A DNA stretch of 64,000 bases from contig NZ_LIUF01000001.1 in NCBI RefSeq assembly GCF_001280425.1, positions 724,945 to 788,944 on the forward strand, read 5' to 3'. Both the position numbers and the translations under genes were made by a program. The notes under the pieces were generated by a model, which did no database searches, was not told the DNA's origin, and was given only the letters and a program-made list of their open reading frames with translations. The stretch is from Haloarcula rubripromontorii. GTDB lineage: Archaea > Halobacteriota > Halobacteria > Halobacteriales > Haloarculaceae. Below, piece after piece: positions 15,374 to 58,440 of the stretch. The first letter of the stretch is position 1. Every line of letters starts with the position of its first letter.

Positions 15374-16174
15374 GTGAGCGACGACGACATCGCACTCTCG
15401 GAAAAGCGGATGTACGGCGAGAAGCGCCCGGAGACCCACGCGTACGTCGCGTCGGGGCTGGGCGTCACCCGCGTCGAAACGGCCGGCGGCCAGATCGGCC
15501 GGTTCAGCCTGAGCGAGCGATGCAACGCCCGCGACGTGGCCGGCGGAAGCGGCGAAGTCGCGGTCGCTACCGACGAGGACGTGCTCGTGTTGACCGACGA
15601 CGGCTTCGTCCCGACCGGGTTCGGCCCGGCCACCGCTGTCGGCTACGACGGCGCGGGCCTGCTGGCGGCCGGCGAGGGCCGCGTCGCCCGCTACGCTGAC
15701 GGCGACTGGGCCGAACTCGGAACCGTCGACGACGTTCGCGCCATCGATGGCGACCGCATCGCCGCGGCCGATGGCGTGTACGCCCTGCCGTCGCTCGACC
15801 GACTCGGCCTGATAGACGTGGCCGACGTGGCCGGCGACTACGCCGCGACCGAGAGCGGGCTGTACCGCCGGAACGGCGACGACTGGACCGAGGTTCGCTC
15901 GGGGAGTCACCGGGCCGTCGCCGCCGACGGCGAGCGCGTCCACGCCGCCGCGGCGGATGGACTGTACGAACTGACAGCCGGCGGCTGGGAGCCATGTGCG
16001 TTGCCGGCGACCGAGCGCGTGGTCGACGTGGTTCACGGCGACGACACCTACGCCATCACCGAGAACGGCACCTTCCTCGTTGCGACCGCGGCCGAGGCGA
16101 CCGCCGACGGACAGGGCGGCTGGCGACAGCGCTCGCTGGGCGTCCCCGATGTCGTCGGCGTCGCCGTGGCCTGA
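15374..16174 (+). CDS. Beta-propeller protein, HVO_0234-like
   Basis: A roughly 266-residue acidic protein made of repeated short beta-strand units (for example VAVATDEDVLVLTDDG, GLLAAGEGRVARYADGDW, RVHAAAADGLYELTAGGW), as expected for a beta-propeller. I believe it matches the haloarchaeal family known from Haloferax HVO_0234; its function is unknown. The GTG at 15374 follows the hemL stop by one base and gives a start (VSDDDIALSEKRMYG) that looks conserved; an ATG at 15341 would overlap hemL. It is likely co-transcribed with hemL. Confidence 0.78.
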   Translation: MSDDDIALSEKRMYGEKRPETHAYVASGLGVTRVETAGGQIGRFSLSERCNARDVAGGSGEVAVATDEDVLVLTDDGFVPTGFGPATAVGYDGAGLLAAGEGRVARYADGDWAELGTVDDVRAIDGDRIAAADGVYALPSLDRLGLIDVADVAGDYAATESGLYRRNGDDWTEVRSGSHRAVAADGERVHAAAADGLYELTAGGWEPCALPATERVVDVVHGDDTYAITENGTFLVATAAEATADGQGGWRQRSLGVPDVVGVAVA

Positions 16175-16269
16175 CCCCGACAGCAGTAATCGGCCGCGTG
16201 CCTGTCTCACGCGCCACACCCGCTTACAGAACCGAAACAGGGTTTAGCCCGGGCAGCCACCCACCGCAC

Positions 16270-17124
16270 ATGATTATCCCCGGAGCTGATACGCAGGCGT
16301 TCGCGGCGACTCTCGCCGAGGCGACCGGCGAGCAGCTGGGACGGGTCGAGTACGAGCGGTTCCCCGACGGCGAGCACGTCGTCCGCGTGCCCGAGGCGGT
16401 CTCGGGCGAACGAGCCGTCGTCGTTGCCTCGACCGTCGACAGCGACGCCCACGTACAGGTACTCCAGTTGCAGGACGCGGCCCGCGAGAGCGGAGCCAGC
16501 GAGGTCGTCACTGTGATCCCGTACATGGGCTACGCCCGGCAGGACGAGGCGTTCAAGCCCGGCGAGCCGGTTTCCTCGCGGGCGATGGCCCACGCTATCT
16601 CGACCGGGACGGACCGCGTGGTGACGGTGAACCCCCACGAGCCGGCCGTCTGTGACTTCTTCGACGTGCCGGCCACCCACGTCGACGCCGCGAGCGTCCT
16701 CGCGGACCCGCTGCCGGACACCCTCGAAGACCCGCTCTTCCTCTCGCCCGACGAAGGCGCAATCGACCTTGCGAGGACAGTCCGGGACGCCTACGGCGAG
16801 GGTGAAACGGACTTCTTCGAGAAGGACCGCGACTACGACACCGGCGACATCGAAATCCGACCCAGCGACGCGCCGGTCGAGGGCCGGGACGTGGTGCTTG
16901 TCGACGACATCATCGCCACCGGGTCGACGATGAGTGAGTCGGTCAGCGTCCTCGGCGACCGCGACGCACAACGGGTGTTCGTCACCTGCGTCCACCCGAT
17001 GCTCGCCAGCAATGCCCTGACAAAGCTCAACACCGCCGGCGTCGAGGCCGTCTACGGCACGGACACGCTCGAACGCGCCGTCAGCGAGGTCAGCGCCGCG
17101 CCGGTCGTCGCAGACCAGTTGTAG
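16270..17124 (+). CDS. prs: Ribose-phosphate diphosphokinase (PRPP synthetase)
   Basis: A 284-residue enzyme that makes PRPP from ribose 5-phosphate and ATP for purine, pyrimidine, histidine and tryptophan synthesis. The PRPP-binding loop DVVLVDDIIATGSTM is near residues 206-220, and the catalytic N-terminal segment with FPDGE and PYMGYARQDEAF is present. It is shorter than bacterial Prs (about 310-320), which is normal for archaeal class enzymes. The ATG at 16270 gives the family's usual MIIPG start; a longer in-frame extension falls inside the previous gene's end. Confidence 0.94.
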   Translation: MIIPGADTQAFAATLAEATGEQLGRVEYERFPDGEHVVRVPEAVSGERAVVVASTVDSDAHVQVLQLQDAARESGASEVVTVIPYMGYARQDEAFKPGEPVSSRAMAHAISTGTDRVVTVNPHEPAVCDFFDVPATHVDAASVLADPLPDTLEDPLFLSPDEGAIDLARTVRDAYGEGETDFFEKDRDYDTGDIEIRPSDAPVEGRDVVLVDDIIATGSTMSESVSVLGDRDAQRVFVTCVHPMLASNALTKLNTAGVEAVYGTDTLERAVSEVSAAPVVADQL

Positions 17125-17148: not shown

Positions 17149-17190
17149 TCACTCCGACGCTTCCGCAGCCGCGACCGGAGCAATCGCGAT
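17149..17190 (-). pseudogene. Displaced second copy of the ileS 3' coding end
   Basis: On the minus strand this encodes IAIAPVAAAEASE and a stop codon, against IAIAPVAAVEASD and stop at the true ileS end 148 bases upstream in the gene's direction. Over the 33 best-aligned bases (17158-17190 against 17306-17338) 28 match. Four of the five differences are at third codon positions, so the copy appears to have diverged while it was coding. It is separated from ileS by a hairpin-rich element. Confidence 0.72.
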
Positions 17191-17296
17191 CCCGCATCCA
17201 CCTTTTTCAGCGTCGGGTTCGCTCGCGATACTCGCGAACCGCTCCTTGAAAAACGTGGGTGAAAAAGCAGCACGCTCCCTCCGGTCGCGTGCTGTT
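17191..17296 (-). repeat. Hairpin-rich dispersed element behind ileS
   Basis: A 106-base element between the ileS stop and the displaced 3' end. In gene orientation it has a GC hairpin and T5, then CCCACGTTTTTC (17248-17259), an inner inverted repeat GGTTCGC/GCGAACC (17217-17239), and GAAAAAGGTGG (17198-17208). The outer CCAC(C/G)TTTTTC words form an imperfect inverted repeat (10 of 11 bases). Two related elements lie at 47914-48065 and 48105-48203. No coding capacity for a transposase. Confidence 0.72.
17262..17294 (-). terminator. Hairpin plus T5 behind ileS
   Basis: An 8-bp stem CAGCACGC/GCGTGCTG (17268-17275 with 17287-17294) followed, in the ileS direction, by a run of five T. It looks like an intrinsic-type terminator and is part of the dispersed element. 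Confidence 0.5.
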
Positions 17297-20200
17297 CTAA
17301 TCAGATGCTTCCACGGCCGCAACGGGAGCAATCGCGATCTCCATCTCCACGCCCTCGACATCCCACGTTTTGCGGTGGCCATCTTCGACGCTGTCTAGCT
17401 CGTCCGCGCGGACCTCCTCTTTGATCAGGGATTCGTGTTCGCGGACCAGCGAGTCCACGCGCTCGTCGTCGATTGCGAGGTCAACGACAATCCGTTCCTC
17501 GATGTCCAGTTCGAGGTCCTTGCGCATCTCCTGAATTCGGCGGATGACCTCGCGGGCGTACCCCTCGCTCTCAATATCCTCAGTGAGCGCAGTGTCGACG
17601 TAGACGACGCCGCCGCCGTCGAGGGCAGTGAACTCCGTGCCGGTGACGCCGTCGGGCGTCTCGCGGCGGAATTCGACCATCTCCTCGGTGAGATCGATGT
17701 CCTCACCGAGCGCGTCCGAGACCGTGCCTTCGAGGGTATCGAGGGACTGCTCTGCGACGCGGGACTCGTTGAGCGCGTTCATCACGCGGCCGGCATCGTC
17801 GCCGAAGGCCGGGCCGAGTTCGCTCATGTCGGCCTCGGCGGAGTAGGCGAGTTCGCCCCACTCGTCGTCAGCGCCGACGACTTCGACCGCGCGGGCGTTC
17901 AGGCGGTCGGCGATGATGGCCTCCTGGGCGCGGACGGCGTCAGCCACGTCGTCGCTGTCCACGTCGACGACGACGCGGGTGACGGGCCAGCGGAGCTTGC
18001 GCTCGGCCTGCTGGCGGGCGTTCGACCCCGCTTCCTCGACCTCGCGGACGACCTCGATTTCGCGTTCGAGGGCGGGGTCGTGCAGGTCGTCGTCGGCCTC
18101 AGGCCAGTCGCACATGTGGACCGTCGGGTGGCCGGCGTCGCCGGTGAGCGCCTCGTAAATCTCCTCGGCGACGAAGGGCGTGAACGGCGCGAACAGGGCA
18201 GCGACCTCCTCAAGCACGCGATAGAGGGTGGCGTAGGCGGCCTGCTTGGAGGCGCTGTCCTCTTCTTCCCACATCCGTTCGCGGACGACCTGGATGTAGA
18301 ACCGCGAGACGTCTTCGACGACGAACTCCAGGAGTTCGTCGACCGCCTTGTCGTTCTCGAAGTCGTCCATCGACTCGGTCATCGCCGCCTCGACGCTCTG
18401 GAGTCGGGAGAGGACCCACTCGTCGACGAGTTCGAGGTCGTCCCGCACGTCCTCGACGGTGGTCGCTTCGGCGGCTTCGCCGCCTTCGCCTCGATCCGAC
18501 TGCGTCGGATCGCCGGGCTCGAAGTCGTCGGCCCGCATGTACGGCAGCGGGAAGCGCGCGACGTTCCAGAGGATGTTCAGCCGGCGCTGCATCTCGGCGG
18601 TCTCCTCCCAGGAGAAGTTCATGTCCTCGCCCTGGGCGGTCACCGACAGCAGGAACAGCCGCATCGGGTCGCGGCCGTGTTTCTCGATGACCTCGTGGGG
18701 GTCGACCAGGATACCCTTCGATTTGGACATCCCGCGGCCGTCGGGCATGTTGGCGTAGCCGTGCATCAGCACCTGTTTGTACGGAATCTCGCCCGTCGCG
18801 GCGGTGCTCATGCCCAGCTGGGACCAGAACCAGCCGCGGGTCTGGTCGTGGGCCTCCATGATGAGGTCGGCGGGCCACAGCTCCTCGAAGTCCTCGGTCT
18901 GTTCGGGGTAGTCGACGGTCCCCCACGTGGCCACGGAGGAGTCGAGCCACACGTCGAAGACGTCGCCGACGCGGGTGTAGGTCGTGCCGTCCTCGGTGAT
19001 GGTGAGGTCGTCGACCGTACCCTTGTGGAGGTCGACCGACTCGGGGTCGATGTCCTGGTCGACGCGCTCGGCGAGTTCCTCACGGTCGCCGACGACGATG
19101 GCGTCGTCCATCGACCCCGACCAGTCTTCGGGCAGCCAGATGGGGATGGGGATGCCCCAGTAGCGCTGCCGGGAGACGTTCCAGTCCGGCGCGTCCTCGA
19201 CGAAGTCGCGGAAGCGGTTGTCCCGCGCCCACTGGGGGTACCACTCGCTGTCCTCGATGTTTTCGAGCAGTTCGTCCTTGATGTCGGTGACCGTGATGAA
19301 CCACTGGTCGGTGACGATGCGGACGATGTCGGTGTCACAGCGCCAGCACTGCCCCTCGCGGACGGTGTGGCCCTCCTCGCTGGAGAGGAGGTGTCCGTTG
19401 TCGTCGAGGTCGGCGATGACGTCGTCGTTGGCGTCGCGGACGAAGGTGCCCTCGTACTTGCCGGCGGCGTCGGTGTAGACGCCGTCGGAGCCGACCGGAC
19501 AGAAGATTTCGAGGCCGAGTTCCTGCCCGCGCTCGAAGTCCTCCTCACCGTGGCCGGGCGCAGAGTGGACCAGCCCGGTGCGGTCGGCCTCAACGTAGTC
19601 GGCGGTGTACACCTGCCCCGAGCCCTCGCCCTGGGCGTGGTCCGGCACTTCCTCGGCCAGCGGGTGGTCGTACTCCCAGCCGACCATCCCCTCGCCGGTC
19701 AGTTCCTCGACGACCTCGTAGTCGTCGTAGCGGCCGGCCTTCAGCACGTCCTCGACGCAGGCCTCGGCGACGTAGAGGCGTTCTGTCTCGCCGTCTTTCG
19801 TGGCGTCGACGCCCACGTAGTCGAGGTCGCCGTCGACCGCGACGAAGGTGTTGGCGACGATGGTCCAGGGCGTCGTCGTCCAGATGACCAGACTGCCCTC
19901 GCGGTCGGCGAGTTCGAATTTCACGTAGATGGAGGGCTTGCCCACGTCGTGGTACTCGACCTCGTTGTTGGCGATGCCGGTCTCACAGCGGGGGCACTGG
20001 TTGATGGAGCGCTGGCCCTGCTCGACGAGGCCGCGCTCGTGGGCCTGCTGGAAGCCCCACCAGGCGGCCTCCATGTACTCTGGGTTGACCGTCTTGTACG
20101 GGTCGTCCCAGTCCATCCAGACGCCGAAGTCCTGGAAGTCGCTCTGGAGGCCTTCGAGTTGCTCCTCGGCGAAGTCCTTGCACTCCTCGATGAAGTTCTC

Positions 20201-20545
20201 CTCGCCGAAGCGCTCGATGTCCTTCTTGTTCTCGAAGTCCAGGCGCTCCTCGACTTTCGTCTCGATTGGGAGCCCGTGCATATCGTAGCCCGGCCGGTCG
20301 GTGACGTCGTAGCCCTGCATCCGCAGGTAGCGGATGTAGCAGTCCTTCAGGGTCTTGTTCCACGTCGTCCCCATGTGGGCCGCGCCGGAGGTGTATGGCG
20401 GCCCGTCGACGAAGAAGTAGTCCTCGCCGTCGGCCCGGTGGGCCTTCGTCTGCTCGTAGGCGTCGACGTCGTCCCAGTACTCGAAGACGCCGTCCTCGAC
20501 GGCGTCGGGGTCGTACTGGTCGTCGACAGCGGCGAAACGTTCCAT
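17297..20545 (-). CDS. ileS: Isoleucine--tRNA ligase
   Basis: A 1082-residue class I synthetase that charges tRNA-Ile. The HIGH-type motif is HMGT in PPYTSGAAHMGTTWNK, the KMSKS motif is GMSKSKG, and the large CP1 editing domain and the long C-terminal domain characteristic of the archaeal/eukaryotic IleRS type are present. I start at the ATG at 20545 (MERFAAVDDQ) instead of eight codons upstream because the alignable region begins there. Two GC palindromes inside the anticodon-binding half encode an extra peptide of about 17 residues. The 3' end is duplicated downstream after a hairpin element. Confidence 0.95.
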   Translation of the reverse strand: MERFAAVDDQYDPDAVEDGVFEYWDDVDAYEQTKAHRADGEDYFFVDGPPYTSGAAHMGTTWNKTLKDCYIRYLRMQGYDVTDRPGYDMHGLPIETKVEERLDFENKKDIERFGEENFIEECKDFAEEQLEGLQSDFQDFGVWMDWDDPYKTVNPEYMEAAWWGFQQAHERGLVEQGQRSINQCPRCETGIANNEVEYHDVGKPSIYVKFELADREGSLVIWTTTPWTIVANTFVAVDGDLDYVGVDATKDGETERLYVAEACVEDVLKAGRYDDYEVVEELTGEGMVGWEYDHPLAEEVPDHAQGEGSGQVYTADYVEADRTGLVHSAPGHGEEDFERGQELGLEIFCPVGSDGVYTDAAGKYEGTFVRDANDDVIADLDDNGHLLSSEEGHTVREGQCWRCDTDIVRIVTDQWFITVTDIKDELLENIEDSEWYPQWARDNRFRDFVEDAPDWNVSRQRYWGIPIPIWLPEDWSGSMDDAIVVGDREELAERVDQDIDPESVDLHKGTVDDLTITEDGTTYTRVGDVFDVWLDSSVATWGTVDYPEQTEDFEELWPADLIMEAHDQTRGWFWSQLGMSTAATGEIPYKQVLMHGYANMPDGRGMSKSKGILVDPHEVIEKHGRDPMRLFLLSVTAQGEDMNFSWEETAEMQRRLNILWNVARFPLPYMRADDFEPGDPTQSDRGEGGEAAEATTVEDVRDDLELVDEWVLSRLQSVEAAMTESMDDFENDKAVDELLEFVVEDVSRFYIQVVRERMWEEEDSASKQAAYATLYRVLEEVAALFAPFTPFVAEEIYEALTGDAGHPTVHMCDWPEADDDLHDPALEREIEVVREVEEAGSNARQQAERKLRWPVTRVVVDVDSDDVADAVRAQEAIIADRLNARAVEVVGADDEWGELAYSAEADMSELGPAFGDDAGRVMNALNESRVAEQSLDTLEGTVSDALGEDIDLTEEMVEFRRETPDGVTGTEFTALDGGGVVYVDTALTEDIESEGYAREVIRRIQEMRKDLELDIEERIVVDLAIDDERVDSLVREHESLIKEEVRADELDSVEDGHRKTWDVEGVEMEIAIAPVAAVEASD
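18470..18512 (-). repeat. Two palindromes encoding an in-frame insert in ileS
   Basis: GGCGGC-TTC-GCCGCC (18470-18484) and CGATCCGAC-TGC-GTCGGATCG (18492-18512) are perfect stem-loops with three-base loops inside the reading frame. They encode the stretch GDPTQSDRGEGGEAAE, a low-complexity acidic segment at a domain boundary that I do not expect in other IleRS proteins. The look is that of a palindromic element inserted in frame. Confidence 0.55.
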
Positions 20546-20632
20546 ACCCGTTCCATCCGCCGCCGGCAATAAAGGACAATCGATTGTGTGCCTATCGTTC
20601 AGACACCACAGTTGGCGGCCTCCCGACGCCGG

Positions 20633-46114: not shown

Positions 46115-47092
46115 ATGAATTACAGGAGTTTCGAGCATCTCAGTGCTGATACGCAGGAGTGGATCGTCGATCTCCCAGACGACCTGGGTCTGATCGTCGG
46201 AATACCCAGAAGTGGGATGTTAGTGTCGAATTTACTCTCACTGCATCTCAATCTCCCGATGACGGACATCGACGGGTTGCGGGAGGGGAGACTCCTACAG
46301 ACGGGGGAACGGTACGACGGTGAGGTCGACTTCACGAAGTTCTCAAAGATACTGGTGGTCGACGATACCGTCTACACCGGAAGCGAAATGACCGATGCGC
46401 AGTCCACAATCGACGGGTTCGATCTGTCGGCGGACGTGTACTACGGCGCTGTGTACGTTGACGAGGGTTCTGAGCGGTTCGTCGATACGTACGCACAGAC
46501 CCTGGCGTTCCCGAGAGTGTTCGAGTGGAACATGATGCACCACGACTTCCTCGTGGACGCCTGTGTCGACTTGGACGGCATCCTCTGTCGTGACCCGACG
46601 CCGGAAGAGAACGACGACGGGCCGAGATACCGGGAGTTTCTTTCGACCGTCGATCCGATCTGTGTTCCCTCGGTGAAGATCGGGAAAATAGTCACCTGTC
46701 GACTGGAGAAATACCGCAACGAGACCGCTGCCTGGCTCGACGAACACGGGATCGAGTACGACGAGCTAGTGATGATGCAGTACCCTGATAAGGCCACACG
46801 AGTCGCTGCGGGCAACCACGGCGAGTACAAGGCCGAGGTGTACGAGTCTTCGGACGCCAAGCTGTTCATCGAGAGTTCCCATTCGCAGGCCCGAACCATC
46901 GCTATGCAGACGACCAAACCAGTCTACAGCAAAGAGCAAAACCGAATGCTCCAGCAGGGGTATCTCAACCGCGTCGCCAGAAACGGGCGGATGTCCATTG
47001 AAGCCGTCAAATCCGACCCGCTCAGATACGCCGAACAGTTCAGGTCGGACCCTGTCGACTTCGTCAAGCGGGCCTCGTCGGTGTTTCTCTGA
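46115..47092 (+). CDS. Phosphoribosyltransferase-like / HAD-like fusion protein
   Basis: A 325-residue protein. The N-terminal half is a PRTase fold: GIPRSGMLVSNLL for the PPi loop and KILVVDDTVYTGSEM for the PRPP loop. The second half opens with VDACVDLDGILCRDPTPEE, a HAD-type catalytic DxDG motif, followed by a charged region KIGKIVTCRLEKYRNETAAWL. Such fusions are found in nucleotide-salvage or polysaccharide contexts of phages and mobile regions, and the exact activity is unknown. The composition is more AT-rich than neighbours. Confidence 0.78.
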   Translation: MNYRSFEHLSADTQEWIVDLPDDLGLIVGIPRSGMLVSNLLSLHLNLPMTDIDGLREGRLLQTGERYDGEVDFTKFSKILVVDDTVYTGSEMTDAQSTIDGFDLSADVYYGAVYVDEGSERFVDTYAQTLAFPRVFEWNMMHHDFLVDACVDLDGILCRDPTPEENDDGPRYREFLSTVDPICVPSVKIGKIVTCRLEKYRNETAAWLDEHGIEYDELVMMQYPDKATRVAAGNHGEYKAEVYESSDAKLFIESSHSQARTIAMQTTKPVYSKEQNRMLQQGYLNRVARNGRMSIEAVKSDPLRYAEQFRSDPVDFVKRASSVFL

Positions 47093-47169
47093 CTCGCAGC
47101 CGTCGCCCGCTGTCACGGTGGCGGTCGCTTGGCCCAAACGCTAACCACGAGACGCCCGTGGGTCCGACC

Positions 47170-47913
47170 ATGGGTTCGGGACCACTCTCAGAGACAGCCG
47201 CACTCGTTACCGGAGCGAGTTCGGGTATCGGCGCGGCAACCGCTCGGAAGCTGGCACGTGACGGAGCCGACGTGGCACTGGTCGCCCGCCGGGAAGACCG
47301 CCTCACTGAACTGGCCGACGAAATCTCCGCCGAGCACACCGTCGACACCCACGTCGTGCCGGCCGACGTTAGCGACCGGGCACAGGTCACGGCCGCTGTC
47401 GAGTCCACCGTCGACACGCTCGGCTCGCTCGACGGCGTCGTTGTCAACGCCGGGGTTGGCCGCGGCTCGGACGTGGAGACCCTGTCAGATGAGCAGTACC
47501 GCACGATGATGGATGTCAACGTCGACGGCGCGTTCTACACCGCCCGCGAGTCGCTGCCGCATCTCCGTGCTGGGGCCGGGTCGCTCGTGTTCGTCGGGAG
47601 CTTCGCCGGACAGTATCCCCGGCCGTTCAATCCCGTCTACGCCGCAACGAAGTGGTGGCTCCGTGGCTTCGCCCACAGCCTCGCCGGGCAGGTCGGTGAC
47701 GACGACATCGGCATCACCGTAGTCAATCCTTCAGAGGTCCGGTCTGAGTTCGGCTCCGAGGACGGAACCCCGTTCAACGAGCGGTTCGAGCCGGGTGATG
47801 TGACCGAGCCCGAGGAGGTAGCCGACGCTATCGCCTTCGCTATGCGACAGGAGCCACCGACTACCATCAACAGCATCGACGTGTTCCGTCGGGACAAGTT
47901 CGAGCACTTCTAA
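47170..47913 (+). CDS. Short-chain dehydrogenase/reductase
   Basis: A 247-residue classical SDR oxidoreductase. The nucleotide loop is TGASSGIG, the NAG motif is VVNAGVGRG, and the catalytic Tyr/Lys are in YAATKWWLRG, with a serine in FVGSFAGQ. NADP(H) preference is likely because an Arg pair follows the second strand (ARRED). Substrate unknown. The ATG at 47170 is preferred over GTG at 47158. A hairpin element begins immediately after its stop. Confidence 0.92.
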   Translation: MGSGPLSETAALVTGASSGIGAATARKLARDGADVALVARREDRLTELADEISAEHTVDTHVVPADVSDRAQVTAAVESTVDTLGSLDGVVVNAGVGRGSDVETLSDEQYRTMMDVNVDGAFYTARESLPHLRAGAGSLVFVGSFAGQYPRPFNPVYAATKWWLRGFAHSLAGQVGDDDIGITVVNPSEVRSEFGSEDGTPFNERFEPGDVTEPEEVADAIAFAMRQEPPTTINSIDVFRRDKFEHF

Positions 47914-48065
47914 CCCACCACCTTTTTCATCGTCGGGTTTCCTCGCGGCGCGAAGCGCCGCTGTGGGAACCCTCCTCGAAAAACGTGGGCCAAAAAGGCG
48001 CGAATCGCGACGCGATTCGCGTGAAACCGCGCGCCGACGGCGCGCGGTACAGACACCGCAAACCG
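47914..48065 (-). repeat. Hairpin-rich dispersed element B
   Basis: A 152-base element starting at the base after the SDR stop. It has the same words as the ileS element: CCACCTTTTTC (47918-47928) and GAAAAACGTGGG (47978-47989). It also has three perfect stem-loops: GCGGCGC-GAA-GCGCCGC (47945-47961), CGCGAATCG with its complement (47999-48021), and ACCGCGCGCC-GAC-GGCGCGCGGT (48026-48048). It precedes the displaced argF end. Confidence 0.72.
47992..48021 (-). terminator. Hairpin plus T5 in element B
   Basis: Stem CGCGAATCG/CGATTCGCG (47999-48021) followed in the minus direction by five T (47992-47996): terminator-like and placed behind the displaced argF end. Confidence 0.45.
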
Positions 48066-48104
48066 TTATTCCTGCTCGGCCAGCCACGCCAGCAGTCCCT
48101 TCGT
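48066..48104 (-). pseudogene. Displaced second copy of the argF 3' coding end
   Basis: On the minus strand this encodes TKGLLAWLAEQE and a stop; the real argF end, 138 bases away, encodes QKGLLAWLSEQA and a stop. Over 30 aligned bases (48072-48101 against 48210-48239), 28 are identical. The copy lies between elements A and B. Confidence 0.75.
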
Positions 48105-48203
48105 CAGCCACCTTTTCCGCATCGGGTCGTTCGCGTCGCTCACGACCGCTCGCGCAAAACGTGGGCGAAAAGGCGAGTGCTCGCGCCGCTCGCACTCGGT
48201 GCG
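48105..48203 (-). repeat. Hairpin-rich dispersed element A behind argF
   Basis: A 99-base element between the argF stop and the displaced argF end. It shares CCACCTTTTCC (48108-48118), GCAAAACGTGGG (48154-48165), an inner GGTCGT/ACGACC inverted repeat (48125-48147), and a stem CGAGTGC/GCACTCG (48174-48198) with the elements at 17191 and 47914. Confidence 0.72.
48168..48198 (-). terminator. Hairpin plus T4 behind argF
   Basis: Seven-base stem CGAGTGC/GCACTCG (48174-48180 with 48192-48198) then four T in the argF direction (48168-48171). It would end the arg operon transcript. Confidence 0.45.
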
Positions 48204-49100
48204 CTACGCCTGCTCAGACAGCCACGCCAGCAGTCCCTTCTGGGCGTGCAAGCGGTTCTCCGCCTGGTCCCAGACGATGGCGTTGTCGGACTCGATGGCG
48301 TCGTCGGTGACCTCCTCGCTGCGGTGGGCGGGGAGACAGTGCATGAACGGGCGGTCGCCCAGCAGCTCCGTCGTAATCTGGAACCCCTCGAAGTCTTCGA
48401 GCTTCTGCTCGCGTTTGTCCTCCTGGCCCATGCTGACCCACACGTCGGAGTAGACCACGTCGGCGTCGGCGACGGCCGCTTCTGGGTCGTGGGTCGTTTC
48501 AGGCGCGTTGCCGAAGGCGGCGGCGCGGTCGGCCACGTCCTCGGAGATGCCGTAGCCCTCCGGCGTGGCGACGGTGAGGTCGAGCCCGACCATCGCCGCG
48601 CCGATGACGAACGACTGGCAGACGTTGTTGCCGTCGCCGACCCACGCCACCGAAACGTCCTCGAAGTCGCCGAACTGCTCGCGGATAGTCAGTAGGTCCG
48701 CAAGCGTCTGGCAGGGGTGGGCGTCGTCGGTGAGGCCGTTGATGACCGGGACCTCGGCGTATTCGGCCAGTTCCTCGGCGTCCGCGTGGTCAAACACGCG
48801 GGCCATGATGAAATCGACGTAGCGGCCGAGCGCGCGGGCGGTGTCCTTGACCGGTTCGCCGTGTCCCAGGTGGATGTCGTCGGGGCCGAGGAACACGGCG
48901 TGGCCGCCCAGTTGCGTCATCCCCGTCTCGAAGGACACCCGAGTTCGCGTCGAGGGCTTCTCGAATATCATGCCGAGCGTCTGCTGCTCAAGCAGGTCAC
49001 TCATGCTCCCCTCGCCGTGGTCGGCCTTGATGGCCGCGGCGCGGTCGAGGACAGTCGCCAGTTCGCCGGTCGTGAGGTCGTCGACGTCGAGTATGTCCAT
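48204..49100 (-). CDS. argF: Ornithine carbamoyltransferase
   Basis: A 298-residue enzyme making citrulline from ornithine and carbamoyl phosphate. The carbamoyl-phosphate loop STRTRVSFE and the ornithine motif HCLPAHR are clear. The ATG at 49100 (MDILDVDDL) is used; the longer frame would enter the previous gene. It is the last gene of the arg operon, one base after argE. Its 3' coding end is duplicated downstream. Confidence 0.95.
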   Translation of the reverse strand: MDILDVDDLTTGELATVLDRAAAIKADHGEGSMSDLLEQQTLGMIFEKPSTRTRVSFETGMTQLGGHAVFLGPDDIHLGHGEPVKDTARALGRYVDFIMARVFDHADAEELAEYAEVPVINGLTDDAHPCQTLADLLTIREQFGDFEDVSVAWVGDGNNVCQSFVIGAAMVGLDLTVATPEGYGISEDVADRAAAFGNAPETTHDPEAAVADADVVYSDVWVSMGQEDKREQKLEDFEGFQITTELLGDRPFMHCLPAHRSEEVTDDAIESDNAIVWDQAENRLHAQKGLLAWLSEQA

Positions 49101-49101
49101 G

Positions 49102-50163
49102 TCAGTCCTCCAGCAGGCGTTCGGTCGCGGTTTCGAGCACTGCAACGGCGCGGTCGTACTCGTCGAGCGGGAGGTGCTCGTCCGGTGCGTGGTCGAGGTC
49201 GGAGTCGCCGGGGCCGTAGGTCACCATCGGGCAGTCCCACGCTTTCGCGTAGACGTTCATGTCGCTGGTCCCGGTCTTGCGAAGCAGCGTGGGCTCGCCG
49301 CCCTGCTGACGGATGGCGGCCCGGAACGCCCGTGCGGCGTTGGTCCGGGGGCTCTGCATCACCGGTTCGACCCTGTCGTTCCAGTTGACGGTCCCGTTCG
49401 TCAGGTAGCCGTCGGCTATCTCCCGGATTTCGTCGGTGGTGTACTCCGGCGGGACCCGCAACTGGACGTCCATCGTCGCTTCGACGGAGAGTCCGTCGGC
49501 GGAGGGACCGCCCTCGAACTCGACGGGCTTGCAGGTGACCTGCTCGAACACCGGGTTCCACTCGTCGTCGTCGAACTCGTCGTCGACCGACGACCACCAG
49601 TCGATGGCGTCCTGGATGGCGTTGTTCTCCGGACGCGAGGAGTGCCCGGACTCACTCGTTGCGACGTAGGTCCCGGCCAGCAGACCGCGGTAGCCCAGCG
49701 TGATGCCCTCCCAGCCGGAGGGTTCGCCGTTGACGACGGCGTCGGGGGCCTCCTCGCGGTCCTCGACGAGGTAGCGCCCGCCGCGGGAGTCGACCTCCTC
49801 GCCGACGACGCCGACGAAGGACGCCCCGGTGCGGACGGCGGCCACGGCCATCGCACACAGCGGGCCCTTCGCGTCGACGCTGCCGCGCCCCCACAGCACG
49901 TCCCCCTCGTCGGTCTCCTCCACGCGGACCGGGATGTCCCCCGGGACCGTGTCGATGTGGGAGGTGAGCAGGACGCCGTCGTCGGCCGGGGCGCGGACGT
50001 TGCCCACCTCGTCGAGCCACGCCTCGCGGCCGTGGGCCTCGAAGAACTCGACCAGCCGTTCGGCTGCCTCCGTCTCGTTCCGTGAAACCGATGGGATGCG
50101 GACGATTGCTTCGAGCAGGTCGCGGGCCTCGGTGTCGGTCTCGTGGCTCGCGGCTTCGCTCAT
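49102..50163 (-). CDS. argE: LysW-carrier lysine/ornithine hydrolase (LysK/ArgE type)
   Basis: A 353-residue zinc-dependent M20 hydrolase that releases ornithine from the LysW carrier. Metal-binding residues are in LLTSHIDTVPG and WGRGSVDAKGPL, with the catalytic GVVGEEVDSRG. Starts with MSEAASHETD at 50163, overlapping the aminotransferase gene by four bases. The carrier gene is in the same operon, so the substrate is protein-bound and not N-acetylornithine. Confidence 0.9.
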   Translation of the reverse strand: MSEAASHETDTEARDLLEAIVRIPSVSRNETEAAERLVEFFEAHGREAWLDEVGNVRAPADDGVLLTSHIDTVPGDIPVRVEETDEGDVLWGRGSVDAKGPLCAMAVAAVRTGASFVGVVGEEVDSRGGRYLVEDREEAPDAVVNGEPSGWEGITLGYRGLLAGTYVATSESGHSSRPENNAIQDAIDWWSSVDDEFDDDEWNPVFEQVTCKPVEFEGGPSADGLSVEATMDVQLRVPPEYTTDEIREIADGYLTNGTVNWNDRVEPVMQSPRTNAARAFRAAIRQQGGEPTLLRKTGTSDMNVYAKAWDCPMVTYGPGDSDLDHAPDEHLPLDEYDRAVAVLETATERLLED

Positions 50164-56008: not shown

Positions 56009-57271
56009 TTACTCCTCCGTGTCCTCGCCGCTGCCGTCGGTGACGGCGGCCCCTTTCTTCGCGTCTTCGAGGATCTTGTTCGCGAGGCGGGACTGGAAGC
56101 CGTGGTACTTCGCGACGCCGGTGGCGTCCTGCTGGGTGATCCCGCCGGAAACGTCCTCCTCGTTGAACGAGGCCGCGGACTCGCTGTAGACGGCGTAGTC
56201 GGACTCGCGCGAGACCGGGCGGCAGTGGCCGCCTTCGAGCTTCACAGTAACAGAGCCGGTGACGCGCTCGTTGGTGTCGTCGATGAACGCTTCGAGCGCG
56301 CCCGTCAGCGGCGCGTCGACGAGGCCCTGGTACGCCTTCTGGGACCACTCCTGGTCGACCTGAGCCTTGAACTGGCGCTCTTCCTGCGTGAGGACGAGTC
56401 CTTCCAACGCCTCGTGGGCCGTCAGCAGGACCGTGGCCGCCGGGTGTTCGTAGTTCTCGCGGACCTTCAGCCCGAGCATGCGGTCTTCCATCATGTCCGT
56501 GCGGCCGATGCCGTGGGCACCCGCCTGCGCGTTGAGTTGCTCGATGAGTTCGACCCCGCCGAGTTCCTCGCCGTCGACGGCGACGGGAACGCCTTCCTCG
56601 AAGGCGACTTCGACCAGTTCAGCGTCTTTGTCGGAGGGGTTGTCGGTCCACTTGTAGATGTCGTCGGCTGGGATGGTGCCCGGGTCTTCGAGTTCTGAGC
56701 CCTCGATAGAGCGGCTCCAGAGGTTCGTGTCGATGGAGTAGCGACCGCCGTCGCCGCCCTCGACGGGCAGGCCCTTCTCCGCGGCGTACTCGTTTTCCCA
56801 CTCGCGGGTCAGCCCGAGTTCACGCACCGGCGCGATAACATCGAGGTCCGAGTCGCGCCAGACGGCCTCGAAGCGCAGTTGGTCGTTGCCCTTGCCGGTA
56901 CAGCCGTGTGCGACGGCCGAACAGCCCTCGTCCTCGGCGACCGAGAGAATGGCTTTGGCGATGACCGGGCGCGCGAGAGCGGTCCCGAGCGGGTAGCCCT
57001 GGTAGTCGGCGTTGGCCTTGACGGCCTCCATACAGAGGTCAGCGAACTCCTCGGTGGCGTCGACGACGTGCTGTTCGACGCCCAGCGCCTCGGCGGTTTC
57101 CTCGGCCTCCTCGAACTCGTAGTCGGGCTGGCCGACATCGACAGTGACGCCGATGACCTCGTCGTAGCCGTACTCCTCTTTCAGCAGCGATACGCAGACT
57201 GTCGTGTCGAGCCCGCCCGAAAAGGCGAGTGCAACGGTTCCGTTTCCTTCTGGCATGGATGTGTTCTGCAT
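56009..57271 (-). CDS. argG: Argininosuccinate synthase
   Basis: A 420-residue enzyme joining citrulline and aspartate with ATP. The N-terminal PP-loop ALAFSGGLDTTVCVSLL and the segments GCTGKGNDQLRFE and GRTDMMEDRMLG match ArgG. Start is uncertain: ATG at 57271 (MQNTSMPEG, chosen) or 57256 (MPEGNG); GTG at 57310 is less likely. First gene of the argGH pair. Confidence 0.93.
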   Translation of the reverse strand: MQNTSMPEGNGTVALAFSGGLDTTVCVSLLKEEYGYDEVIGVTVDVGQPDYEFEEAEETAEALGVEQHVVDATEEFADLCMEAVKANADYQGYPLGTALARPVIAKAILSVAEDEGCSAVAHGCTGKGNDQLRFEAVWRDSDLDVIAPVRELGLTREWENEYAAEKGLPVEGGDGGRYSIDTNLWSRSIEGSELEDPGTIPADDIYKWTDNPSDKDAELVEVAFEEGVPVAVDGEELGGVELIEQLNAQAGAHGIGRTDMMEDRMLGLKVRENYEHPAATVLLTAHEALEGLVLTQEERQFKAQVDQEWSQKAYQGLVDAPLTGALEAFIDDTNERVTGSVTVKLEGGHCRPVSRESDYAVYSESAASFNEEDVSGGITQQDATGVAKYHGFQSRLANKILEDAKKGAAVTDGSGEDTEE

Positions 57272-57654
57272 TGGTTCCGTGGTGTGCCTGTCGGTTTCTC
57301 GATCAAACACCAGATCGAGTATCCCATCGAACCGACGACGACGGCGTCTAGCGACGAAACGAACCAGTCAAGTGAAGAGTAAGTAGTAGTGGGCCTAGAA
57401 ACGGCCCGGTCGTCGTCGTGGGGAGAAACGGAGGGACCCCTCGCTATCCGCAGCGAGCGTCGTGGAGCGAGAGGTCTGCGTCATGTACTTGCTGCTGTGT
57501 GACTCGGGTACTAATAGTTTCCGTGTTCACAGTGGCGTGTGTATGGTCAACAAACACAGTCCCTCAGCAGCCATCACATCGCCCGTAGCGGCCAGCGCCG
57601 CCAGACAGACTGGCGTGTGACGAGCTTTGAACGGTGTATTCGGCGTCTCTCTGG
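57272..57654. promoter_or_regulatory. Region between argG and the secreted protein gene
   Basis: A 383-base gap. It holds the argG promoter and the tail of a gene ending at 57655. A CTCGCT/AGCGAG hairpin (57440-57457) and a GGGCC/GGCCC pair near 57390 are visible. No convincing gene. Confidence 0.35.
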
Positions 57655-58440
57655 CTATTGGCCGGCGTCGACGGTGTCGGGCGCGCCAGCCGGCGGCTCG
57701 GTTTCCCCGCCGCTGGTATCCGTCTCGTTGGCTGGCGTCGCGTCGGTATCGTCCGTCCGTTCACTCGCCGGCGTCCGCTCCGGCCCGCCCTCCTGACGGT
57801 CGCTTACTTCGGTTCTGTTCGCCGCTTCGGGGCCACGGTCATCGGCACCGTTAGGTCGAGCCTGCTGCCCGACGTTCGGCCCGGCGATGCCCTGTGCGAC
57901 AGCGGCGACTTCCGGCCCGGTCAGCTCGCTCGCGCGCTGTGAGAGGGTCTTGATGGCCGCCGCATCGATGCCTTTCTGCTCCAGCGCTTCGGCGGGAAGC
58001 TGGCTGGCGGTTTCGTTCGTCTCGTTTGCCAGTCGCTGGACGTTCTTCGTTTCGGCGTGGAGCTGTGCGGCCTTCGCCCGGTACTCACCCTCGCTCATCG
58101 AGCCGTTCTCACGGGCCTGCTCTAGCGCCTGCTTTCGCTGTTGGAGTTCTGCCAGTCGGGCCTCGGAGTCGTTCACCTGCTCGGCGACGACGGACGCCCT
58201 CGCAGCGTCAGTGTCCGCCCTCGCGACGCGGATGCCGAACGTTCGGGACTGGACCTCGCCGTCCAGTTCGGCCCCCTGGATGCTGACGACACCTGCCAGC
58301 TGTGCGCCGGGGGGCGTCGCATTCGCATCTGCCTGGTCGGTCACTGTTTCAGTCTCCTGTGCCATCGTCACGGCGGGCACCGCGGCGAGCGTGCTCACCA
58401 CGAGCAGCAGTGCCAGCAATACCGGGGTGGCTCGTCTCAT
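57655..58440 (-). CDS. Secreted coiled-coil/alanine-rich protein of unknown function
   Basis: A 261-residue exported protein with a clear Sec-type signal (RRATPVLLALLLVVSTLAAV ending at AMAQ-like cleavage). The middle is a helix-rich, Gln/Glu/Ala coiled coil (RLAELQQRKQALEQARENG, KAAQLHAETKNVQRLANE), and the last 80 residues are charged, Pro/Thr/Asp-rich and probably disordered. No family recognised. It follows the HTH membrane protein with a 136-base gap in the same direction, so a linked role in the cell envelope is plausible. ATG at 58440. Confidence 0.75.
   Translation of the reverse strand: MRRATPVLLALLLVVSTLAAVPAVTMAQETETVTDQADANATPPGAQLAGVVSIQGAELDGEVQSRTFGIRVARADTDAARASVVAEQVNDSEARLAELQQRKQALEQARENGSMSEGEYRAKAAQLHAETKNVQRLANETNETASQLPAEALEQKGIDAAAIKTLSQRASELTGPEVAAVAQGIAGPNVGQQARPNGADDRGPEAANRTEVSDRQEGGPERTPASERTDDTDATPANETDTSGGETEPPAGAPDTVDAGQ

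Follow-up and report, generated by a model that had tools for sequence, protein, structure and literature searches.

Why is the end of argF found twice in the short space between this gene and its convergent neighbor, and where did the second copy come from? The window analyzed here is a 64,000-nt stretch of the Haloarcula rubripromontorii genome (G000). The first-pass annotation of this window had described a duplicated argF 3' end with one element on either side, and this layout was confirmed. Downstream of argF, on the minus strand, the order is tail, hairpin, element E1, second tail, two hairpins, element E2 and the stop codon of a convergent gene:

48204..49100, minus strand: argF, ornithine carbamoyltransferase (Pfam OTCace and OTCace_N), C-terminus KGLLAWLSEQA-stop
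48202-48240, minus strand: live argF tail (T1), from repeat comparison
48172..48203, minus strand: hairpin 1, between the argF stop and E1, which begins 32 nt past the stop (from the sequence)
48108..48171, minus strand: element E1, 64 bp, formerly called element A (model R1, 62.4 bits, E 8e-12; fold z -2.65)
48064..48107, minus strand: second argF tail (T'), KGLLAWLAEQE-stop, which begins immediately at the E1 right end and matches the resident argF end of G009
47996..48063, minus strand: two hairpins upstream of E2, of the type that precedes elements facing a convergent gene, closest to G009, G027 and G019 (from the sequence)
47918..47995, minus strand: element E2, 78 bp, formerly called element B (model R1, 69 bits)
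47158..47913, plus strand: convergent short-chain dehydrogenase (SDR) gene (Pfam adh_short)

The right end of E1 reads ..GGAAAAGGTGG at 48108 (minus strand). The 39-nt argF tail copies (48202-48240 and 48064-48102) share 87% identity and lie 138 bp apart from start to start, which agrees with the 99-base stretch reported between them. Element B had been said to abut the SDR gene, and the E2 right end is indeed 4 nt from the SDR stop codon (47911-47913).

A second case of the same order had been claimed elsewhere in the window, and it was found at ileS, again as tail, hairpin element E and tail:

17297..20569, minus strand: ileS-like class I tRNA synthetase (Pfam tRNA-synt_1 and Anticodon_1)
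about 17301-17345, minus strand: live ileS tail, from repeat comparison
17198..17265, minus strand: element E behind ileS (model R1, 87.6 bits, the top match in its own genome)
17153..17197, minus strand: second ileS tail (T'), which begins immediately at E
15994..17124, plus strand: convergent ribose-phosphate pyrophosphokinase-like (prs-like) gene (Pfam Pribosyltran_N)

Downstream of ileS the order is stop, hairpin, E, second tail and the convergent prs-like gene, with the tail-E-tail arrangement present once (at 17.2 kb). The 39-nt tail pair (17301-17339 and 17153-17191) has 85% identity and a start-to-start distance of 148 bp. As had been stated, each of the two sites lies between convergent genes (argF/SDR and ileS/prs).

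Over 464 kb of the own genome, the tails of 356 genes were each compared with the 700 nt downstream of the same gene. The tails of argF and ileS were the only ones scoring at least 24, and the mismatched-tail null in the same scan reached a top score of 21.5. In two other Haloarcula samples (L158 and L173, metE), the strongest tail duplications also hold E in the gap, and the same tail scan of a sample from another family (G057) gave nothing clearly above the null. Tail copies beside E in the own genome scored 28-76 versus no more than 17.5 for control stretches at the same loci. This same-locus control is the tail-copy null quoted here; a G018 cross-locus null, inflated by arrays, and another tail null, contaminated by argF homologues, were left out. 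When the search for further pairs was run with the element model in the own genome and its relatives, many cases beyond the two were obtained. The hairpin elements do form a family, as had been proposed, and the order of gene end, hairpin element and second gene end is found at many genes.

Element E is a dispersed hairpin repeat of 60-80 bp with the fold CCAC.TTTTT..(variable hairpin)..AAAAA.GTGG (about -30 kcal/mol, z -2.6 to -4.5). Among the 23 sequences used for stem covariation, 95% of the pair cells were paired, and changes on both sides were seen in 18 cells versus 6.5 in shuffled data. The terminal inverted repeat (CCAC.TTTTT / AAAAA.GTGG) is present in nearly all of the aligned sequences, and some copies have the outer stem variants CGAC/GTCG and GTA/TAC. 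The own genome, surveyed through sampled stretches and the covariance model, contains at least 22 copies. In the Haloarcula genome G018 the same model gave at least 36 matches, including four that come from redundant contig ends, and 26 distinct copies were classified. Matches to E were found in at least 45 of 59 sampled haloarchaeal genomes and in at least 24 of 29 genera across the order; these copy and genome counts are lower bounds, because scoring covered the best candidates only. No Rfam match was obtained up to E = 1 for positions 46500-49500 of the window. A viral origin of E was rejected for lack of an exact match of its left arm in viral contigs. Ten of the 22 own-genome copies lie in G000:C1:620541-878517 (258 kb, about 6.5% of the genome). 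In G018:C1 (1-69590 and 3285065-3354654), matches at 56504-58031 and 3341568-3343096 show a constant offset of 3285064-3285065, which suggests a redundancy of about 69.6 kb between the contig ends.

A feature overlooked by the first-pass annotation is that the E right end nearly always adjoins a gene 3' end, be it a convergent stop, a tRNA end or a tail copy. This was the case for 21 of the 22 copies found in the own genome, which were divided into two classes. In class (a), with 13 copies, the E right end lies -1 to +12 nt from the stop codon of a convergent gene; shifted control points along the same loci met a convergent stop 5% of the time. In class (b), with eight copies, E stands directly before a sense copy of the tail of the upstream gene. 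The remaining copy belongs to neither class. The 26 distinct copies of G018 include five at convergent stops, 15-16 with tail copies and two located 1-2 nt from the 3' ends of convergent tRNAs (tRNA-Pro and tRNA-Ser). As its right ends meet stops, tRNA ends or tail copies in both G000 and G018, E is a 3'-end element. Most E copies carry TTTTTC on both strands, with the T tracts reading outward both ways, and E1 of argF has T4 tracts only. A reporter carrying a T5C sequence showed 95% termination in vivo in Haloferax volcanii, where a T-stretch motif is common to 748 of 807 intergenic termination sites (PMC7237163). Since TTTTTC on both strands resembles the T5C terminator, E most likely functions as a two-way transcription terminator.

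The joint between E and the start of a tail copy lies at the E right end in nearly all of 22 cases examined, and no microhomology was seen by eye in alignments of the E/tail joints. About half of the class (b) joints from G000, G018 and G057 (L301-L356) have 1-2 extra nt, mostly C or CC, placed 3-4 nt into the tail past the E right end; these extra bases are recurrent (e.g. ATG[CC]G, ACT[C]GG and CAG[CC]GAG). The duplicated tails are gene-specific and 36-234 nt long, and homology drops sharply within about -6 to +1 of the stop codon.

A total of 392 genomes were searched for an E end followed by argF tail codons. Such argF tail copies behind E were found in 30 of them, in three families (f1, which is that of Haloarcula, f7 and f4), and the reversed pattern gave almost no matches in the same search. 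The argF joint GTGGCTGCCGGACCAGG is common to Haloarcula and Halorientalis, and the f7 argF joint is shared with Natrinema L061. The joint in the window, GGTGGCTGACG.AGGG, looks like a shortened version of GTGGCTGCCGGACCAGG. Because it is also present in G004, it is inherited or exchanged and not the product of a fresh local event. An independent new argF insertion in each species was ruled out, since the joint is common within Haloarcula and to Halorientalis. In the near relative G009, argF has a plain end that equals the outer tail of the window and the hairpins of element B, so that the outer tail and B are the resident part and the inner tail and E1 came in. In G000, the displaced argF tail and its flank are closest to G009, and E1 is closest to G004. 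The proposed serial insertion of A and then B was therefore not upheld: B and the outer tail are the residents, A and the inner tail the newcomers. The window sites do not appear to be two fresh serial insertions. As a separate observation, a fixed sequence unrelated to argF, AAAAGTGGTTTCACACGCTCAAAATGC, occurs in several other haloarchaeal families (L203, L223-L229 and others).

Mosaic alleles were found at ileS. Between G003 and G005, the gene body upstream of the copied part has 29 mismatches in 300 positions, the live tail 2 in 234, the hairpin none and the displaced tail 26 in 200. The live tail of G003 differs from the displaced tail of the same genome at 61 of 234 positions, and it is the displaced tail, not the live one, that matches resident relatives (7 mismatches in 170 versus G021). 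Since the live tail is near-identical between the two genomes and the displaced tail is resident-like, a foreign tail-hairpin-E unit has been placed before the resident tail, with body and displaced tail being resident. The foreign segment starts no more than 36 nt from the point where the displaced tail starts. The best matches of the foreign tail were other Haloarcula (G017 and G027), so that a donor more distant than Haloarcula was ruled out. The ileS mosaic of G006 differs, as there the second tail, not the live tail, looks foreign. Exchange in either tail would produce both patterns. Downstream of ileS in L281, L273, L274 and L282, a spacer (CGACCAGCGGGAGGCCTC..GAGCCGCGAGC) lies between the gene end and a short tail copy, and this spacer is present twice in G021.

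In the case of metE, the joint is common to G018 and G020, and the tails are near-identical within G018 and within G020 and differ between the two genomes. This pattern of tails alike within and unlike between genomes amounts to concerted evolution. The metE locus of G013 has the E-less form; its reading frame (L261) is broken near the end (query residue 176, one TGA) by a frameshift or an assembly error. No near-identical second copy of the G018 metE element was found elsewhere in G018, and a fresh transposition of this element inside that genome was thus not supported. Identical E copies were seen only inside local arrays or redundant contig ends. Arrays of the form [tail-E]n-tail have a period of 130-190 bp, and in G245 ileS three tails lie about 355 bp apart. 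Such arrays with homogenised copies in other genomes point to exchange between tail repeats. Some genes have the tail-E-tail arrangement in distant lineages, namely argF and ileS in the Haloarcula family and f7, and a glutaredoxin-like gene in G000 and G018. Downstream of metE in L236, L246 and L254, copies of the last codons (GCGGACGATTGA) were observed every 55-60 bp with a hairpin-like spacer and no E.

On balance, we are inclined to regard E as a terminator-like 3'-end repeat, and the tail-E-tail arrangement as the outcome of recombination between alleles, spread and homogenised by exchange. One allele, bringing along its tail, terminator hairpin and E, would have been fused at the E right end into the tail of a second allele, and the own tail of the recipient would have been displaced downstream. 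The two tails could then serve as direct repeats: homologous exchange within them would move the cassette between species, gene conversion would keep the tails alike within a genome, and unequal exchange would grow the unit into [tail-E]n-tail or remove it. Intermolecular gene conversion is documented in a polyploid haloarchaeon (PMC8223754). As to the first joint, a joining of alleles at an end created at E is favored over an insertion with a long duplication, because the homology always stops at the stop codon. Four observations speak against this explanation. The constant joint at the E right end, often with a C or CC insertion three bases on and with no microhomology, is not predicted by plain illegitimate joining; the coincidence within 36 nt in G003 and G005 resembles a one-point insertion more than an allele replacement with a free left crossover; the foreign-looking tail of G006 ileS is the second one, not the live one; and the T tracts in E1 of argF reach only T4.

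We regard it as doubtful that E represents an undescribed kind of gene-end insertion, in which a protein-less hairpin cassette would enter the last codons, bring an in-frame tail and stop, displace the old tail and spread between haloarchaeal species via the tail copies. If true, this would be a strategy of harmless insertion without a protein of its own.

It is unlikely that E moves as a non-autonomous transposable element, inserting near stops and duplicating a tail of 36-234 bp by a widely staggered cut or by copying, with later homogenisation of the copies. The patchy presence of E at orthologous sites, its terminal inverted repeats, the exact start of the tail copy at the E end and the empty site in G013 metE all agree with transposition, as does the foreign segment of G003 and G005 starting near the point where the displaced tail starts. 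However, the duplication length is variable, the homology breaks off around the stop codon (about -6 to +1) and not at a random point, the G018 metE element lacks a near-identical copy elsewhere in that genome, and in G003 and G005 the live tail is of foreign type instead of being copied from the resident tail.

Replication slippage at the hairpin, with a stall at the far side of E, re-annealing upstream in the tail and recopying of tail and E, seems improbable. It would account for the constant right border at E, the variable tail start and the tandem arrays with E in every unit, but it predicts E after the last tail too, and many loci end in an E-less tail. Sequence past such E-less end tails also matches E-less relatives (metE of G018 versus G013; ileS of G006). 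We likewise give little credit to selection as the force that keeps tail-E-tail, whether, for example, because it supplies a spare 3' end, stabilizes the RNA or provides a recombination site that protects the end of the gene. The same genes carry the arrangement in distant lineages and tail copies remain intact; against this, the arrangement is missing from the genes in question in many close relatives, some copies have decayed, and the intact ones can be put down to homogenisation. An assembly artefact or chance similarity can be dismissed, given species-specific versions in 30 independent assemblies and null scores far under the observed ones: the duplicated tails are neither.

The feature is thus real, widespread and more interesting than two local insertions. 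It offers a countable sequence-level trace of gene-end exchange, extension and homogenisation in haloarchaea, across genera, and this trace is seen in housekeeping genes such as argF, ileS, metE and ilvD. It also adds a widespread, conserved, structured 3'-end element outside Rfam, and the candidate terminator role is directly testable.

No tested family fits E fully, and searches of the open-access literature turned up no report of gene tails copied around an element of this type. Repetitive extragenic palindromes (REP/BIME) are short, dispersed, imperfect intergenic hairpins that are sometimes clustered (PMC2817692, PMC3733652), and E is alike in all these respects (at least 22 copies in G000 and at least 36 matches in G018). 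However, the foot of E is CCAC/GTGG (or CGAC/GTCG, GTA/TAC) without the GTAG or CGTC tag of REP, and E adjoins the 3' ends of genes and goes together with tail copies specific to each gene. Like MITEs, E is small and non-coding, has inverted termini and is patchy at orthologous sites. Unlike them, it has no target duplication of fixed length, as the repeats on either side of it are gene tails, 36-234 nt long, that run to the stop codon; E copies facing a convergent gene have no flanking duplication. The e14 prophage, integrated in icd, restores the 3' end of this gene. The E unit similarly gives a live gene a substitute tail in frame, with the old tail displaced downstream (ileS of G003 and G005), but with about 100-340 bp it is non-coding and too small for an integrase gene of its own, although an enzyme could act on it in trans. 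Like the T5C terminator (PMC7237163), E and its leader have T-tract signals, on both strands and immediately past gene ends, but E is more than a bare T tract, being a conserved family whose hairpin arms are long and imperfect. Gene conversion as documented (PMC8223754) would account for the homogenised tails, although there it acts between chromosome copies and not between two tails at one locus. The parts of the feature have known counterparts: hairpins of the REP or MITE kind, terminators based on T tracts, insertions that restore gene tails, and gene conversion.
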